Positions 7,053-13,300 of a stretch of DNA of 23,348 bases are shown here, piece after piece (within the stretch, counting starts at the first letter, position 1; every line of letters begins with the position of its first letter). This DNA comes from a virus. The position numbers were made by a program, and so were the translations under genes. The stretch is from positions 1 through 23,348 of the IMG/VR virus record IMGVR_UViG_3300022074_000389; one strand, written 5' to 3'. Below the pieces are notes generated by a model. The model saw nothing but the letters and a program-made list of their open reading frames with translations. It had not been told where the DNA came from and did no database searches.

Positions 7053-7211
7053 GTGGACCAATCCACCAGATCTGAAGTCCTTCGCAAGCTTCATGAAGCT
7101 GTGTCTAACGCAACGGCGGGTGAAATCCACCGTGCTACTGACTTCCTTACTTTTGCACGTTCGGTCAGATTGGGAAAAAATGACCTTCGTAAGAAGGGAA
7201 GATCTCGTTAA
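7053..7211 (+). CDS. possible 52-aa basic protein (GTG start), frame uncertain
   Basis: A frame from GTG 7053 to TAA 7209-7211 encodes 52 residues beginning VDQSTRSEVLRKLHEAV and ending in a basic tail (RLGKNDLRKKGRSR). It has a helical, charged composition and uses codons like its neighbours (GAA, CGT, GCT, GAC). About 60% of first codon positions are purine by hand count, against about 53% for the competing frame. The competing frame, 7030-7233 (67 codons from ATG, overlapping the upstream stop as ATGA), yields a leucine- and tryptophan-containing sequence with less convincing composition but a better-placed start. Only one of the two is likely real. I prefer this one slightly. Confidence 0.42.
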   Translation: MDQSTRSEVLRKLHEAVSNATAGEIHRATDFLTFARSVRLGKNDLRKKGRSR

Positions 7212-7237
7212 GCTAACCCTCAAATTTTGTTGATCGC

Positions 7238-7417
7238 ATGGTTGACCGGTCGATGGATCTGCTCATGGAAATCCAGGCATTATTAAAAGAAACATGTCTA
7301 AAGCTTGACAAATCCTCCGATTCCTTAACTGGATCAGACAGCGAGGTAACCAGATTGCTTGCCCTCCTCAACTACTTAAAAACTGTTCACTGGCTTATTG
7401 ACCCTCACGATGACTGA
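7238..7417 (+). CDS. 59-aa hypothetical protein
   Basis: ATG 7238 to TGA 7415-7417 encodes 59 residues, beginning MVDRSMDLLMEIQALLKE and ending NYLKTVHWLIDPHDD. It is rich in leucine with two likely amphipathic helices joined by a serine-rich turn (DKSSDSLTGSDSEV), so a small helical hairpin is plausible. Its stop overlaps the next gene's start region by eight bases, as in the rest of the operon. No family is recognised. Internal ATGs at codons 6 and 10 are alternative starts. Confidence 0.6.
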   Translation: MVDRSMDLLMEIQALLKETCLKLDKSSDSLTGSDSEVTRLLALLNYLKTVHWLIDPHDD

Positions 7418-7574
7418 CCTCGAAATCGATCGTTTGCTTCGTAGCTGGTGGTCTGGACTCGATGAATCCGGGCTGCCGAGCGAAAAAACCATTCATCTCA
7501 TAACCCGCTTCACTCGCTTCCTGTTGGAAGCAGAGGCAGAGCGTGTTGCTTCTTTCGATGATCCACTCAACTGA
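7410..7574 (+). CDS. 54-aa hypothetical protein
   Basis: ATG 7410 to TGA 7572-7574 encodes 54 residues: MTDLEIDRLLRSWW at the start, then a turn (GLDESGLPSEKT) and a second helix HLITRFTRFLLEAEAERV, ending FDDPLN. It overlaps the upstream gene by eight bases and ends eight bases before the excisionase-like gene. The helical, charged composition supports a real small protein; the function is unknown. A small early regulator or accessory factor is possible by position only. Confidence 0.6.
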   Translation: MTDLEIDRLLRSWWSGLDESGLPSEKTIHLITRFTRFLLEAEAERVASFDDPLN

Positions 7575-7582
7575 GCTAAAGC

Positions 7583-7783
7583 ATGACCCGTTTGCTCACG
7601 ATCCCTCAGGCGGCTGAAATTCTCAACGTCTCCCAAAGCCACATTTACCAGCTGATCTACGAGGCCGATGCCACCAAGCAAAGCAGGTGGAAGCATGGCC
7701 GCGAGATCATCACGCTTTCGCAGAAGAGCGCATTGCGCCGGACCCTACGCATCAACGTGGCTGCCATCCTCCCGGTTGAATGA
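7583..7783 (+). CDS. excisionase-like helix-turn-helix protein
   Basis: A 66-residue DNA-binding protein with the MerR-like winged-helix pattern of excisionases and AlpA-type regulators. LLTIPQAAEILNVSQSHIYQLI (about residues 4-25) is the helix-turn-helix, with the typical P-x-A-A-E-x-L-x-V-S core, followed by a short wing (RWKHGREIITL). It is the last gene of the rightward operon and converges on the integrase gene, overlapping its 3' end by 39 bases (7745-7783). That pairing fits a recombination directionality factor which tilts the integrase toward excision. It could instead be a transcriptional regulator. The likely binding sites are among the repeated motifs at 8872-9258, which is inference. 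Confidence 0.8.
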   Translation: MTRLLTIPQAAEILNVSQSHIYQLIYEADATKQSRWKHGREIITLSQKSALRRTLRINVAAILPVE

Positions 7784-8872
7784 CTTTTCAAGTTGCCCCC
7801 GTACCTTGACTTGGTTGCGGAGAATCGCATCAAGTGCTGAGGTTGCCAACTTATTAGGGTCAATCCAGCGTCGATAGGTCTCGGTGTGCTCTTTTTGGCT
7901 GTGACCCATAACCGCCGCCGCGGTGAACACTTCCAACTCACTACCGCCGTTGCGCCATAGCCTGCCGGCGTATGCGTGGCGCAGTGCGTAAGGCCTCCAT
8001 TTGATGCCCATTTTTATGCGCATCTTGTTCAGCCATTGCGAGCAGCCGTCATTGCGATCGACGTTGCGCTCTGACTCAGGACGTTCTGTCTTGAGGCGCA
8101 GGTCAAACATCTCAACCCACTCAAGCTGTTGGGGAATCACTGTCCGGTAGCCGGTTTTGGTTTGGTCATCAACTTGCACCAGCCAGATCCCGTCGTCGTT
8201 TTGGAGCAGCCGTGCCTCGTCGCACTCATGAGGCCGCAGTCCGTAGGTGGCCATCATTCCGAAATACCACTTGTAAGGAGCAGGTGCGGTCATGACCCAA
8301 TCAATAATCTCGTCATCGCTCGGTACGTCGGTCGGATCCATCGCTGATTTTTTAGTCAGTGGCACTCCAACCTCGGGGAACTCGATCCGGCAGATCTGCG
8401 CGATGTCCCTCAGTAAGTAATAGAGCTTTTTGTATGTGTACTGATCACGCTCGTATTTGGACAAGGCCTGTTCCAGGGCCTGGGGCGTGACTTCATCCTC
8501 CATGGGCATGAACTTCAAAGTGCCCATGTAGTTGACCTTCCAGGTTGATTCGCTGGTGCGACCAAGCGTCACCTTTTTTCTGTAAAGGGCTCTTATTGCT
8601 GCTGCCCATTTCTTTGGTGTGTCGCGTCCCGGCACTGCCGGCTTGGGAGCTTGAACCGACCAATCCGACCAGTTCCACTGACCCAAGTTCAGATCAGCTA
8701 TCGCCTTTTGCATGAGCTTTTTGGCCTTGGCTCGGTTGCGCTCGGTATCGACCATCTGCAGGGAAACCCGTTGCTGCTTCATTTTTCCGCTGCCGTCTTT
8801 GGCGGGGAACATGCCGAGCAGGTAGAGGCGATCGTTTTTGACGTTGATATTCATGGGTTGAGCTGAGCCCAT
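7745..8872 (-). CDS. int: tyrosine-family site-specific integrase
   Basis: A 375-residue tyrosine recombinase. The catalytic set is visible: Arg213 in YGLRPHE, Lys239 in QTKTGYR, Arg298 and His299 in ALRHAYAGR, His324 in MGHS, and the nucleophile Tyr333 in TETYRRW. The first His of the usual H-x-L-R-H box is Tyr here (YALRH), a known variation. The N-terminal region (residues about 15-180) has the expected strand-rich arm-binding part followed by a core-binding helical domain (LGRTSESTWKVNYMGTL). The start is ATG 8872 or the Met seven codons in (8854). A 9-bp inverted repeat overlaps or directly precedes these starts, suggesting autoregulation. The gene converges with the excisionase-like gene and is the main evidence for a temperate lifestyle. 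Confidence 0.95.
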   Translation of the reverse strand: MGSAQPMNINVKNDRLYLLGMFPAKDGSGKMKQQRVSLQMVDTERNRAKAKKLMQKAIADLNLGQWNWSDWSVQAPKPAVPGRDTPKKWAAAIRALYRKKVTLGRTSESTWKVNYMGTLKFMPMEDEVTPQALEQALSKYERDQYTYKKLYYLLRDIAQICRIEFPEVGVPLTKKSAMDPTDVPSDDEIIDWVMTAPAPYKWYFGMMATYGLRPHECDEARLLQNDDGIWLVQVDDQTKTGYRTVIPQQLEWVEMFDLRLKTERPESERNVDRNDGCSQWLNKMRIKMGIKWRPYALRHAYAGRLWRNGGSELEVFTAAAVMGHSQKEHTETYRRWIDPNKLATSALDAILRNQVKVRGQLEKSFNREDGSHVDA

Positions 8873-8900
8873 CCATACAACTTAGTTTTGCGTTGTATGG
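8873..8900. promoter_or_regulatory. perfect 9-bp inverted repeat at integrase start
   Basis: CCATACAAC (8873-8881) and GTTGTATGG (8892-8900) are perfect inverse copies separated by ten bases. The left arm abuts the ATG at 8872. It could be an operator for the integrase gene, allowing the integrase or excisionase to repress it, or the core crossover site. The ten-base spacer is longer than the usual six to eight for a tyrosine recombinase core. Confidence 0.55.
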
Positions 8901-8992
8901 GAGCGGCCTGAGATGTACTACGCCATCCATTGTTGTACGAAAGTATGGATTTTGGGGGTCTGCTCCGACTATGGACGAACTGTCCCATCCAT

Positions 8993-9042
8993 AAAAAATG
9001 GCCTAAAACGGCCCAAAAGAGCGTAAAACGCTCAAAAGAAAA
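8993..9042 (-). terminator. second and third leftward terminator hairpins
   Basis: Read leftward, GAGCGT-TTT-ACGCTC (9033-9019) is followed by TTTT (9018-9015). Then comes GGCC-GTTTTA-GGCC (9013-9000), followed after two bases by six T (8998-8993). Each is a hairpin plus U-tract on the minus strand; the third has only a four-base-pair stem. They follow directly after the stronger hairpin at 9043-9058 and lie upstream of the leftward integrase gene. Confidence 0.6.
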
Positions 9043-9058
9043 GGGGCCGTTTGGCCCC
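9034..9058 (-). terminator. rho-independent terminator facing leftward
   Basis: On the minus strand GGGGCC-AAAC-GGCCCC (9058-9043) forms a perfect six-base-pair GC stem with a four-base loop, followed by TTTTCTTTT (9042-9034). On the plus strand no T-run follows, so it works leftward only. It would stop transcripts coming from the late tail operon before the integrase gene, or ends a short leftward frame closing at 9085. Confidence 0.72.
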
Positions 9059-9084
9059 CGTATCTGCTGGTATGACTGGCTTCT

Positions 9085-9189
9085 TCAGCTGGCCAGGGCG
9101 ATCTCCAATTTCTCCCTTAACTCGCCGGAGTTATACGTTTTTTTAGTGGGTGACAGGGGTTTGCTTCTCTTCCATACTGGTATCCATAC
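9085..9189 (-). CDS. possible 3' fragment of a leftward gene ending before the terminators
   Basis: A leftward frame with TGA at 9085-9087 ends TYNSGELREKLEIALAS, which looks like a natural amphipathic C-terminus. The terminator hairpin begins 26 bases later. The frame is open upstream to 9291, but there it overlaps the rightward gene at 9225 and shows no good start. It may be a chance frame, or a short copy of a host gene's 3' end carried in the attachment site, as some integrases use. The limits given here cover only the more protein-like part. Confidence 0.2.
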   Translation of the reverse strand, partial: VWIPVWKRSKPLSPTKKTYNSGELREKLEIALAS

Positions 9190-9224
9190 CGTTTGAGCGG
9201 AGAAAACCTTATGGACGGAGTTGT

Positions 9225-9473
9225 ATGAAAGACACCTTCGAGAAAGGCGGTTTATGGATTCAGAGATCACGCCATCGGGAGGGTCCGCCACTCGTTTTTA
9301 CCTGCTGCTACAAGGGCAGTTCGTGGAGTGTCACAGACCCAAAAACCCTGCTTAAGCGTCTGCGAATCAGCACAAAGACCCCTACAGGGGATGCTCTGAG
9401 GGAATGGCTGGTCGAGCCGAAACCGGTGGTTGAACAGAAAGATCCCACAAGCGAGACCAAGATGATCACTTAA
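9225..9473 (+). CDS. 82-aa hypothetical protein
   Basis: The protein starts at ATG 9225, preceded by GGAG five bases upstream, one of the better ribosome binding sites in the window; the frame extends to 9150 but without support. The sequence runs MKDTFEKGGLWIQRSRHR, then PPLVFTCCYKGSSWSVTDPKTLLKRLRI, with a polar C-terminus (VEQKDPTSETKMIT). The strand-turn-strand followed by a basic helix suggests a small alpha/beta protein that could bind nucleic acid; no family is recognised. Two TCCATA motifs lie just before and inside its 5' end, so its expression might be tied to integrase or excisionase binding. Confidence 0.62.
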   Translation: MKDTFEKGGLWIQRSRHREGPPLVFTCCYKGSSWSVTDPKTLLKRLRISTKTPTGDALREWLVEPKPVVEQKDPTSETKMIT

Positions 9474-9506
9474 AAGTGACTAATCTTAGGTATCCGCACA
9501 GGTACT

Positions 9507-9680
9507 TTGTCCGACGATTACACCTGGCAATTCACCATCGAGAAGGTGCGTAGGGAGGTACAAGAATGCACCAGTATTGAGGCGATGCGAGAACTATCTT
9601 TGGAAACAATTATTCTGATGGAGAAGCAACGCCGCTGGTTCGTAAGCCAGTTCAAAGAGCATGACGATCAACCTTCGTGA
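9507..9680 (+). CDS. 57-aa hypothetical protein (probable TTG start) overlapping lysozyme gene
   Basis: The frame from TTG 9507 to TGA 9678-9680 gives 57 residues: LSDDYTWQFTIEKVRREV, then a second helix EAMRELSLETIILMEKQRRWFVSQF and end KEHDDQPS. The composition is strongly protein-like, a charged helical hairpin. There is no ATG early in the frame, so TTG is the likely start (AGG lies about four bases before it). It fills the gap between the 82-aa protein and the lysozyme, overlapping the latter by 20 bases. No family is recognised; I see no membrane segment, so it is not an obvious holin. Confidence 0.6.
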   Translation: MSDDYTWQFTIEKVRREVQECTSIEAMRELSLETIILMEKQRRWFVSQFKEHDDQPS

Positions 9681-10284
9681 CTTCTTTTACTGGTTCGATT
9701 CAGGGCGCAACGCTAATCAGAATGCCGCTGTCGATTTGCTCTTGGAGCAACTTCCTTCCTCACTAAAACGTGACGATGCTGCATGGGTGCGGCTGTACCG
9801 GAAACCGGTACGGGTTCCACAAGATGAAATGCCTTCGGCGGCCATCGACTTGATTTGTGAGTTTGAAGGCTTCAGGTCCCATCCCTATGACGACGGCATG
9901 GCGGTCGCCACGATCGGCTACGGCTCAACCTTTTATGAAGACGGAATGCCGGTGGAATATTCGGACAGTCCGATTGACGAACCGACCGCTCGTCGGATGA
10001 TGCTCAACATCGCCAAGACTGATTTTTGGGATGTGTTGCGCGTTCGCATTCCCTACTGGAACGAAATGACCGAAGGGCAGAGGGGTGCTCTCTTGTCTTT
10101 CGGATACAACGTGGGCTCGGGCTTCTACGGTTCACCTGGATTTGCCACCATCACTCAAGTCTTAAGCGACAAAGCATGGGACGAGGTTCCTGACGCCATG
10201 CGGCTCTACGTCAATCCGGGCACCTCTGTCGAAGCAGGTTTGCGCCGTCGCCGCGAAGCTGAGATTGCTATGTGGACAAGTTAG
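9661..10284 (+). CDS. T4-type lysozyme (GH24 endolysin) with N-terminal extension
   Basis: A 207-residue peptidoglycan-cleaving endolysin for host lysis. Residues about 60-207 match the T4 lysozyme (GH24) family: Glu69 in FEGFRS, Asp78 in YDDG, Thr84 in ATIGYGS. The spacing of nine and six residues equals that of the T4 catalytic E11-D20-T26 set. Further family phrases are LLSFGYNVGSGFYGS and GLRRRREAEIAMW. The first 55 residues (MTINLRDFFYWFDSGRNANQNAA) are extra compared with T4 and of unknown role; they contain no hydrophobic signal-anchor, so export would need a holin, which I do not see. It converges with the tail-fibre gene, with 28 bases between the stops. Confidence 0.94.
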   Translation: MTINLRDFFYWFDSGRNANQNAAVDLLLEQLPSSLKRDDAAWVRLYRKPVRVPQDEMPSAAIDLICEFEGFRSHPYDDGMAVATIGYGSTFYEDGMPVEYSDSPIDEPTARRMMLNIAKTDFWDVLRVRIPYWNEMTEGQRGALLSFGYNVGSGFYGSPGFATITQVLSDKAWDEVPDAMRLYVNPGTSVEAGLRRRREAEIAMWTS

Positions 10285-10312
10285 GCAATACCCGCAGACA
10301 CTCCAGCTTCAA

Positions 10313-13300
10313 TCATTGTGCTTCTAGTGCTGCGATCCGTGCTTCTAATTGTTCAATGCGTGCCATTGCTTCCTGCAAAGCACCGAAACCTTTTGTCATT
10401 ATGATACTATTTTTTACTGATTTTTGACCAGGGACCATGGCTTCTTCATCATCTAGGTCATCAGTATCAACAAGTTGAGGGCAAATTTCTTCTACTTCCT
10501 GAGCAATAAAACCAAGTAGTTTTTCCGGTCCAAAACCAACATCTTCAATGAAGTTAAAATTGACGAGTCTTAACGCCTTCACATCGTCCCATTGAGACTG
10601 AGCGTCAACGATGTTTTCTTTTAGCCTTTCGTCAGACAAACTGGTGTATTGATTTGCAGTATTCTGGACACCACCAGTAGTACGGACTCGAAATACCTCA
10701 GCGCCATCAGCTTGGTCAGCTCTACTAGAACTTCGATAACCAGAAATAATATAACGATTAGTACTGCTACCTTGGGCGGTCTTAAAAATATGTGCTCTTG
10801 TTGGAGCACCTTGTGCGGAAAAAATCTGTTGACCACTACTTTGAATCTGATGCCTACGATTACCACCAGTTATAAGAGCCATATGATTAGTACCGATTCT
10901 ATACATTCCAGTATCGTCATCACCGTTAAATTTGAAAGCAGCATTATTTTGTGTACCGTTACCAGCCCGAACTCTTTCCGATGCCTGAAGATTAACAAGT
11001 GAAAGAGTACCATTTCTGTTTAAGGTATAACGAGTGGTCGTATTTTCACGAATGTTAAGATTGCCAGCATTTAGGTCAAGATATAAGTGAGAACCATTAA
11101 AGAATAGTTCCGCATCGTCACCAGATCCAAGGCGAAGGATATCGTTGTCAGCTAAGTCAATAGCACTACGGAAATTTGCAACGCCATTAAATGTGATTGT
11201 TCCGGTAGCCGTATCGTTCGCATCGGAACGTAGGAATGAGCCGCCCTGGATGCCATCGACTGTGTCTGCGTCTAGGCCAGAACCACTACCGTCGTTGCCA
11301 GCGTGCCATACCTTATTAGTACCTGCTGCAAAAACATTTTGCCCCGTATTACCGAGATATATGTTTTTATTGGTTGCGTACCAATTGATATAACAACTAC
11401 CATTTGAAGGGCCATCGATATGCAGGTTGCTGCTGCAGCGAATGCGTGCAATGTTACTACTGTTCGAGGAAGACCACCCGCCGATGTATAGATGAGTGCT
11501 ATACGAAGCACTTCTGTCAACTTCTATAGCATGGCCGTTGTCTGATGAACCGACATTTATCTTGTTGCTGACAGTTAGATTGTTGCTAATATTAAAGTCC
11601 TGAAAATATCCGTTGTCCCAGTATCTACTCGATGTGCCAATTGTTCCTGTATTATTACCAGAAGGTCTGATAATACCACTGTCTTCAAGAATTATTCGAT
11701 CGGCTCCATTGTCTTGGAACACAATGCCGTTCTGCTTTAAGTTGTAATACAACCAGCCATTTGAACTAAAGTGAATACTTACATCATCACTACTACCAAA
11801 GTCTAAGTATTGGTTATCAGATAAATCTATGTTACCACGGATATTGACCCTCCCATTAAATGTCTTAGTATTTGATATAGTTTGATCGCCGGTTGTTCGT
11901 AATACTGTGCTATCAACGTGGACAGAATCAGCAGTAACATTGATGCCACTGCCTTGACCAACATTAAGAGTTCTATCTTGAGAAAGTGTTCCACCACCGG
12001 TCAATCCGCTGCCAGAAATAACTGAACGCCCGCAGTTGGTAGAGGTACTTGCTGTGACTGCGTTACCATTCAAAGTACCTACAAATGTAGTAGCTCTGAT
12101 TTTGTTTTCGCTTGGATTAAATCCAATAGTTGATTCGTTGTCTGTCTTTAGACGTTGGTTAGTAGCAGTGGCTTTGTCATCATCAATAAAAACAGGCCGA
12201 TGCCATGCGTTGCCTGTATCGTGGTCAATACGAGCATTTGTGGCATTAGTTGCGGTGGTTGCAGTAGAAGCATTGCCGGTGCAACTTGCAGAAGAACCAG
12301 TAATGTTGCTGCTAATTGTTGCAGGTAAGCGGGCATCAGAAATAGTCCCCGTGTTTAGATTGCCTGCGTTTCGATAGTAACTGCCGTGCTGACCATCGAG
12401 CTGATCAGCATTAGTTGCAGTAGCTGCATTGCCGGTGCAACTTGCAGAAGAACCCGTGATGTCACTGCTAATAGTTCCAGGTAGGCGAGCATCAGGAATA
12501 GTTCCCGTGTTTAGATTGCCTGCGTTTCGATAGTAACTTCCATGTTGCCCGTCTAGCGTATCAGCATCAATATTGAGTGCATCAATATCAGCTTTTGTCT
12601 GGTCCGCAGTAGCTCCAGACTCAATACCGTTCAACTTGGTGTGATCAGCATCAGTAAAAACATTGCTATCACTAGCAGAGCCTACAAGAGTTCTGATTTC
12701 AGCGGCTGTCTGGTCTGCTGTAGCTCCGGCCTCGATATTATTTAGCTTGGTCTTGTCTGCACCGGTCATCAGGCCGGAATTACCACCTGCTGCGACATTG
12801 GGCAGTGTCGCGTTAGTTCCAGTCGAAGATGCAATCGTTCGCGTGGAAGCTGTGTAGCTCAGATCAGTAGAGCCATCTGGACCGGCGGGGCCTTGTGGGC
12901 CAGTAGACCCGGTAGGTCCAGCCGGTCCCTGAGCACCCGTATTTCCGATGGGTCCCTGTGGACCTGTATTTCCTACGGGTCCTTGGGGTCCGGTTGGGCC
13001 TGCAGGACCTTGAGCACCCGTATTTCCGATGGGTCCCTGAGCACCCGTATTTCCGATGGGTCCCTGGGGACCTGTGTTTCCTACGGGTCCTTGAGCACCC
13101 GTAGCACCCGTAGCACCCCTTAAATCAGTTGTCGAAAAACTGAGGCCGTCGTCTGATGTGAAAAAGATGCGACCGCTTGTCGGCGAGTAGTAACCACCAG
13201 TGAATCCGTCGCCGTCTTCGCCCGCCACGCCCTGGGGGCCTTGCGCACCAGCTGCACCTCTGAGATTTCCTGTGGAAAAGCCCAACCCATCATTTGACGT

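Follow-up and report, generated by a model that had tools for sequence, protein, structure and literature searches.

A clustered TCCATA array beside a cyanophage integrase gene as a probable attP with arm-type sites

The stretch of DNA analysed here (the window, 23,348 bp) belongs to a cyano-siphophage-like virus, whose tail proteins are approximately 28% identical to those of S-CBS1, S-CBS3 and S-LBS1. Genes for a DNA polymerase A, an AAA-ATPase, a lysozyme and a dCTP deaminase are also present. Where the AAA-ATPase (replication) gene ends, in positions 500-905, a 57-nt imperfect inverted repeat (660-716 with 849-905, 74%) surrounds TGTCCGTTATTRSCCGTT direct repeats at 756 and 795, a possible origin or operator. 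The locus studied contains a tyrosine integrase gene (int), the gene of a helix-turn-helix protein (HTH66) convergent with int and overlapping its 3' end on the other strand, a divergent gene for an 82-aa protein and, occupying the 350 bp that separate the latter from int, an array of the hexamer TCCATA/TATGGA. The features are as follows.

7583-7783, plus strand: 66-aa helix-turn-helix protein HTH66 (PF12728 HTH_17; weak match to TIGR01764 'excise')
7745-8872, minus strand: tyrosine integrase of 375 aa (PF00589, PHROG integrase); alternative start at ATG 8854, 369 aa
8872-8877, plus strand: exact TCCATA, putative int-proximal arm-type site, extra to the family set; +258 from the candidate core start
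8896-8901, minus strand: one-base variant CCCATA, forming CCATACAAC-N10-GTTGTATGG with the 8872 site
8926-8931, plus strand: one-base variant TCCATT
8944-8949, minus strand: exact copy, putative arm-type site, extra to the family set
8970-8993, both orientations: putative right inverted arm pair (exact copies at 8970, minus, and 8988, plus), TATGGATGGGACAGTTCGTCCATA on the int strand
8993-9042, minus strand: 10-bp-phased T-tract direct repeats, candidate RDF/bend element
9042-9059, minus strand: terminator-like hairpin GGGGGCC-AAAC-GGCCCC followed by TTTTCTTTT, strong, for leftward transcription
9085-9135, minus strand: candidate attP core, resembling the 3' end of a protein gene, TATAACTCCGGCGAGTTAAGGGAGAAATTGGAGATCGCCCTGGCCAGCTGA (encoding YNSGELREKLEIALAS and a stop)
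9118-9133, symmetrical: dyad TAACTC-GCCG-GAGTTA, inside the candidate core
9171-9188, plus-strand TCCATA copies at 9171 and 9183: putative left arm pair, read on the int strand as two direct TATGGA 12 bp apart (9188-9183, 9176-9171)
9210-9215, minus strand: exact copy, putative extra arm-type site
9224-9229, minus strand: one-base variant TTCATA, in the context CATACAAC
9225-9473, plus strand: 82-aa protein with no assigned function (weak PHROG 37139), overlapping the left arm group
9253-9258, minus strand: exact copy, putative extra arm-type site within the gene of the 82-aa protein

Thirteen exact copies of the hexamer were counted in the whole window, eight of which lie within 387 bp beside int, as the initial annotation had claimed for about 390 bases; the other five are found elsewhere in the window. 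Its chance expectation of about 0.2 was borne out as low, since dinucleotide shuffles gave 7.9 copies per window, or approximately 0.13 per 390 bp, a density measured on one linear 23-kb IMG/VR fragment and not on a complete genome. The cluster is the tightest of any 6-mer in the window, and no equal one was detected in the rest of the fragment. A 6-mer occurring eight times in 390 bp appeared in one of 200 Markov-shuffled windows, and local shuffling of the 446-bp array region never reached such clustering (0/200). The next densest hexamer cluster, near 12,930, falls in the GPQGP collagen-like coding repeats (12916-13123) of a 1187-aa tail-fibre-like protein.

The copies form the two groups described before, 8872-8993 and 9171-9258, with the 9118-9133 dyad between them, and several of the sites make inverted pairs. 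Three one-base variants were found where two had been reported. The array had been said to run from the integrase start codon into the next rightward gene. The second part held, as that gene probably starts at ATG 9225, with GGAG upstream, and so contains the 9253 site; the integrase start at 8872 is uncertain and may instead be ATG 8854. A 'terminator block' had also been placed between the groups. A terminator is indeed there, with the correction that it reads leftward, on the minus strand, and that the block is also a 10-bp-phased T-tract array.

The integrase carries the catalytic R-K-(H/Y)xxR-H-Y set of lambda-type tyrosine integrases: R213, K239, Y295-x-x-R298, H324 and Y333 (375-aa numbering) are invariant in the alignment (A2), and the first box II histidine is replaced by Y in all five aligned integrases. 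Its AlphaFold model displays a beta-beta-beta-alpha N-terminal domain (residues 2-56, pLDDT above 93), and full-length lambda Int (1z1g/1z1b) was among the best fold matches, so that an N-terminal arm-binding domain is predicted. On the minus strand, TTTCGTACAACAATGG (about 8944-8927) looks like TTTCGTATTCGCCATGG at the start of int in relatives. Its ATG does not share the reading frame of int, which would suit an int leader lengthened by extra arm sites. HTH66, a candidate excisionase (recombination directionality factor, RDF), has a homologue beside int in 59 of the 80 loci retrieved, nearly every one of the approximately 60 closer integrase relatives among them. Homologues of the 82-aa protein adjoin the HTH66 homologue in loci L022/L093 and L055, and in L083 one lies upstream of att.

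Single-sequence scans for the integrase gave no viral or genomic relative, a two-sequence profile gave two viral relatives, and a profile of five integrases (the window, L022 and three from cyanobacterial plasmids) retrieved 80 viral loci, approximately 58 of them 41-49% identical. It was observed that 42 loci share one order 5' of int: a left arm ATGNAC, 36 nt, a core, 10-bp-phased direct repeats, a pair of inverted arms some 152 nt past the core start and then int. The core of the relatives is a codon-conserved 3' gene end on the int strand, YDIRE(I/V)xExLYLAVLA (YDIREIDEDLYLAVLACR), which lacks a start codon, as it is often directly preceded by a stop. A degenerate-codon scan of 2.9 million viral contigs turned up 44 stretches with this gene end, and contigs of the integrase set account for 42. 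The other two are L127, a fragment with int cut off and a lysozyme 53% identical to that of the window, and contig G006.

The spacings are tightly kept. The gap between left arm and core is exactly 36 nt in 33 of the 42 relative loci, and the left arm is often doubled (ATGNNC-N5-ATGNAC), with the second site 11 bp farther out. The right inverted pair ATGNAC-N5-GTNCAT (ATGCACGGCCCGTGCAT) begins at +151-153 in 26 relatives and at 130-132 in two low-GC ones. In the window, the left TATGGA sites end 35 and 47 nt ahead of the candidate core start at 9135, and the right pair stands at +142/+160, with the position and order of ATGCACGGCCCGTGCAT in the relatives. The remaining exact copies of the array are at -123, -80, +186 and +258, so that the window has eight exact sites plus three variants versus about four sites in relatives. 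In both, arm-type sites flank the core or candidate core on its two sides at conserved spacing; the proposed search of related phages for the same array found the arm layout at the same place in 42 loci, most of them with the spacings given above. The Microcystis plasmid relative (L030) showed an AT-rich tandem repeat and no recognisable two-arm layout upstream of int, the Kovacikia relative (L032) no informative layout there, and a CCATACAAC-N8-12-GTTGTATGG dyad search of viral contigs returned unrelated matches only.

Contig G006 bears on where integration takes place. Its phage lysozyme is followed by ATGAAC, then after 36 nt by the core (YDIREVPEELYLAVLAARRALA and a stop), by a hairpin terminator and, where the contig ends, by a cytochrome c6 gene in convergent orientation; neither a right arm nor int was found beyond the core up to that end. 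Phage, arm, core and cytochrome c6 gene in this order, with no right arm or int, indicate an attR junction, with the core as the integration site. The cytochrome c6 gene we infer to be the host's and not the phage's, because of its identity and place. The relatives thus look to integrate in a cyanobacterial protein gene, at its 3' end. An attL/attR comparison had been proposed as a check, and this one relative contig shows the attR junction beside the core. The same place (L161, G006:C1:43891-44353) is a prophage-like right end adjoining a cytochrome c6 gene and marks a place where freshwater phages of picocyanobacteria insert preferentially.

Within the window, the core probably lies at about 9135-9085. 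Position (35 nt past the left arm), strand and following terminator are as in relatives. With an ungapped profile of the relatives' core, 9135 ranked second among approximately 46,600 placements, and MAFFT aligned the relatives' core there; support for 9135 consists of the ungapped profile rank and the spacing. Protein profile HMM and nhmmer searches gave no match between the two cores, and gapped local alignment was no better than shuffles (72/300). Homology of the candidate core to the relatives' core, unsupported by profile HMMs, was set aside, and a position is claimed rather than kinship with the relatives' host gene. The candidate core would imply a host gene ending in GELREKLEIALAS; the short peptide had no match in PDB, Pfam, NCBIfam, plasmids, phages or viral DNA.

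A less favoured though serious reading keeps the attP and moves the exchange elsewhere between the arm groups, for instance to the 9118-9133 dyad or to a match with a non-coding host site. It draws on the lack of significant similarity between 9135-9085 and the relatives' core, on the peptide that matched nothing and on other members of the group that use tRNA 3' ends. Against it, 9135 is where the end of the peptide with its stop, the terminator, the strand and the spacing of 35 nt agree, and the interval contains no tRNA-like sequence. A tRNA search of the window came out empty and positions 7200-10400 matched no tRNA family, hence no copy of the 3' part of a tRNA or tmRNA is seen; when the array was searched for tRNAs and against Rfam and phage DNA, no core emerged, the phage-DNA matches being short terminator-like stretches. 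The dyad, a possible crossover point, has no counterpart at its position in relatives.

Between candidate core and right arm pair, five tracts of at least four T follow each other at 9-10-bp steps (8993-9042). This was not reproduced in 20,000 shuffles and is the sole such place in the window, where plain lag-10 identity over the interval is unexceptional. The same interval holds period-10 direct repeats (GGGACAGGAA type) in 35 of 38 relatives, with a lag-10 identity of 0.49 versus approximately 0.27. RDFs (Xis/Apl/Cox) have operators that repeat directly at intervals of one helix turn (PMC7498355), which makes the phased repeats the best candidate for the excisionase element. Their assignment as RDF sites is marginally favoured, and the region first read as a terminator block is more likely an excisionase-type phased repeat element as well. 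The phased T-tracts may bend the DNA.

A link between the arm sites and the integrase itself was observed in the relatives. Among loci whose right pair fits the fixed pattern, C/C arms accompany Q at the residue two positions ahead of the R/K of RLYL in 24 of 24 integrases, and none of the 15 integrases with H, L or F at that residue has such arms. On the best tree, arm base and residue change jointly seven times, three of them on well-supported branches, and never apart; labels for the 48 related integrases were coded by hand, and L039 and L043 (Y; ATGCAC sites, no recognisable pair), coded as non-C, could count as one exception. The model puts the covarying residue at the first beta hairpin of its N-terminal domain, the part with which arm-binding domains read DNA. 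The window integrase has K at this residue (K6 in the 369-aa numbering), and its arms have G. The covariation, which rests on related sequences, is indirect support for arm-site binding by the integrase.

The array thus very probably consists of the arm sites that the integrase uses in an attP, and it is enlarged relative to the family. The original suggestion of a probable attP with a two-arm layout is supported by the spacings in relatives, by one prophage-host junction and by the covariation of arm base and residue. For the window phage we infer binding, bending, an excisionase role and the exact core and crossover in the following scheme. The array would be the arm half of an attP lying 5' of int. 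In int orientation, extra arms would be followed by the left direct pair, 35 nt, the core (9135-9085), the terminator, the 10-bp-phased repeats as candidate HTH66 sites, the right inverted pair, further extra arms and the int start. The N-terminal domain would grip the TATGGA-type arm sites, and the core-binding and catalytic domains would hold the core. Bridging of bent DNA by the integrase would then allow strand exchange at a core that copies a host gene 3' end, and insertion would leave the host gene with a phage-supplied C-terminus and then the terminator.

The int leader lies under the right-hand sites, and integrase bound there would therefore be expected to repress its own gene; the chances of such autoregulation through the att sites are even. 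Given twice the number of sites of relatives, with some of them far out (-123 and +258), some sites of the window may be operators. It is doubtful that the attP acts as a lysis-lysogeny switch, in which the enlarged array, reaching the rightward gene, would let integrase occupancy switch lysis-side genes.

Should the hexamers instead be operators of a repressor serving the divergent promoters of int and of the 82-aa gene, the array would be a lysogeny switch and not an attachment site. The two groups do directly precede two divergent genes, and inverted pairs are present among the sites. This explanation is nevertheless very improbable: relatives retain the layout about the 3' end of a host gene, with an integration junction seen as well, the identity of the arm base follows that of a residue in the integrase, and the 23 kb contain neither a repressor gene nor such a cluster at other promoters. 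Iterons of a replication origin are scarcely credible, for despite repeated short sites of uneven spacing near int in a phage with its own DNA polymerase, the sites are of mixed orientation, their position and spacing follow the integrase family and not a replication gene, and no initiator gene adjoins the array.

Temperate cyanophages of picocyanobacteria are few, and those of their attP sites that were found described match tRNA genes. The integrase family reported here, mostly of freshwater cyanophages, appears to use a protein-gene 3' end beside a cytochrome c6 gene. It gives testable predictions on where to seek prophages and on how integrase arm specificity is encoded, and the compact cyanobacterial integrase/attP modules could serve as integration vectors.

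The comparative case for an attP with arm sites is unusually well supported. A like order is found in other cyanobacterial elements. In P-SS2, a putative 53-bp attP 5' of int matches tRNA-Met (PMC2784084). Its integrase is a distant relative (30% identity over the catalytic part), and as in the window the core lies 5' of int on the int strand and is followed by a terminator-like hairpin, with repeats on both sides. In contrast to the window, the core is that of tRNA-Met and the arm words are others; arm sites are absent from the description in the accessible part of PMC2784084. The flanking repeats at L006 3044-3072 and 3287-3320, ACAGTTAGNAGTNACACC and CTACAGTGACA, are probable arm sites. On a Picosynechococcus PCC 8807 plasmid, CGTTCCAAG pairs precede a tRNA 3' half with a hairpin after it, and recur between the hairpin and int. 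This plasmid and P-SS2 share the order of the window with other arm words and cores. This unannotated, complete-looking attP lies on plasmid 'unnamed2' (L033:3383-3652 with L031:1-1101), and the 13-kb 'plasmid' may be an excised integrative element. The T7-like cyanophages S-TIP37 and P-SSP7 likewise combine a tyrosine integrase with an attP adjoining int, but theirs is 3' of int and matches tRNA-Leu (PMC8776855).

Outside the cyanophages, mycobacteriophage Pixie has six predicted arm sites of mixed orientation (PMC3203893). Pixie and cluster K1 resemble the window in an attP 5' of a tyrosine integrase, with arms of mixed orientation on both core sides; close relatives among them have different arm words, for which candidate specificity residues lie in the N-terminal part, and in K1 core and arm are separated by a terminator (PMC3203893). 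Their core is in a tRNA or tmRNA gene, whereas the relatives of the window use a protein gene 3' end (PMC3203893), and they have another arm word and fewer sites than the window. The operator arrays of RDFs such as Xis, Apl and Cox (PMC7498355) place direct repeats with a spacing of one helix turn next to the core, as the phased repeats stand by the candidate core in the window. In KplE1 intS/attL and in P4, att overlaps the int leader, so that integrase and RDF can repress int (PMC2951348, PMC7498355); these are enterobacterial prophages, with which the window shares the layout alone, and it is from this layout that autoregulation would follow.
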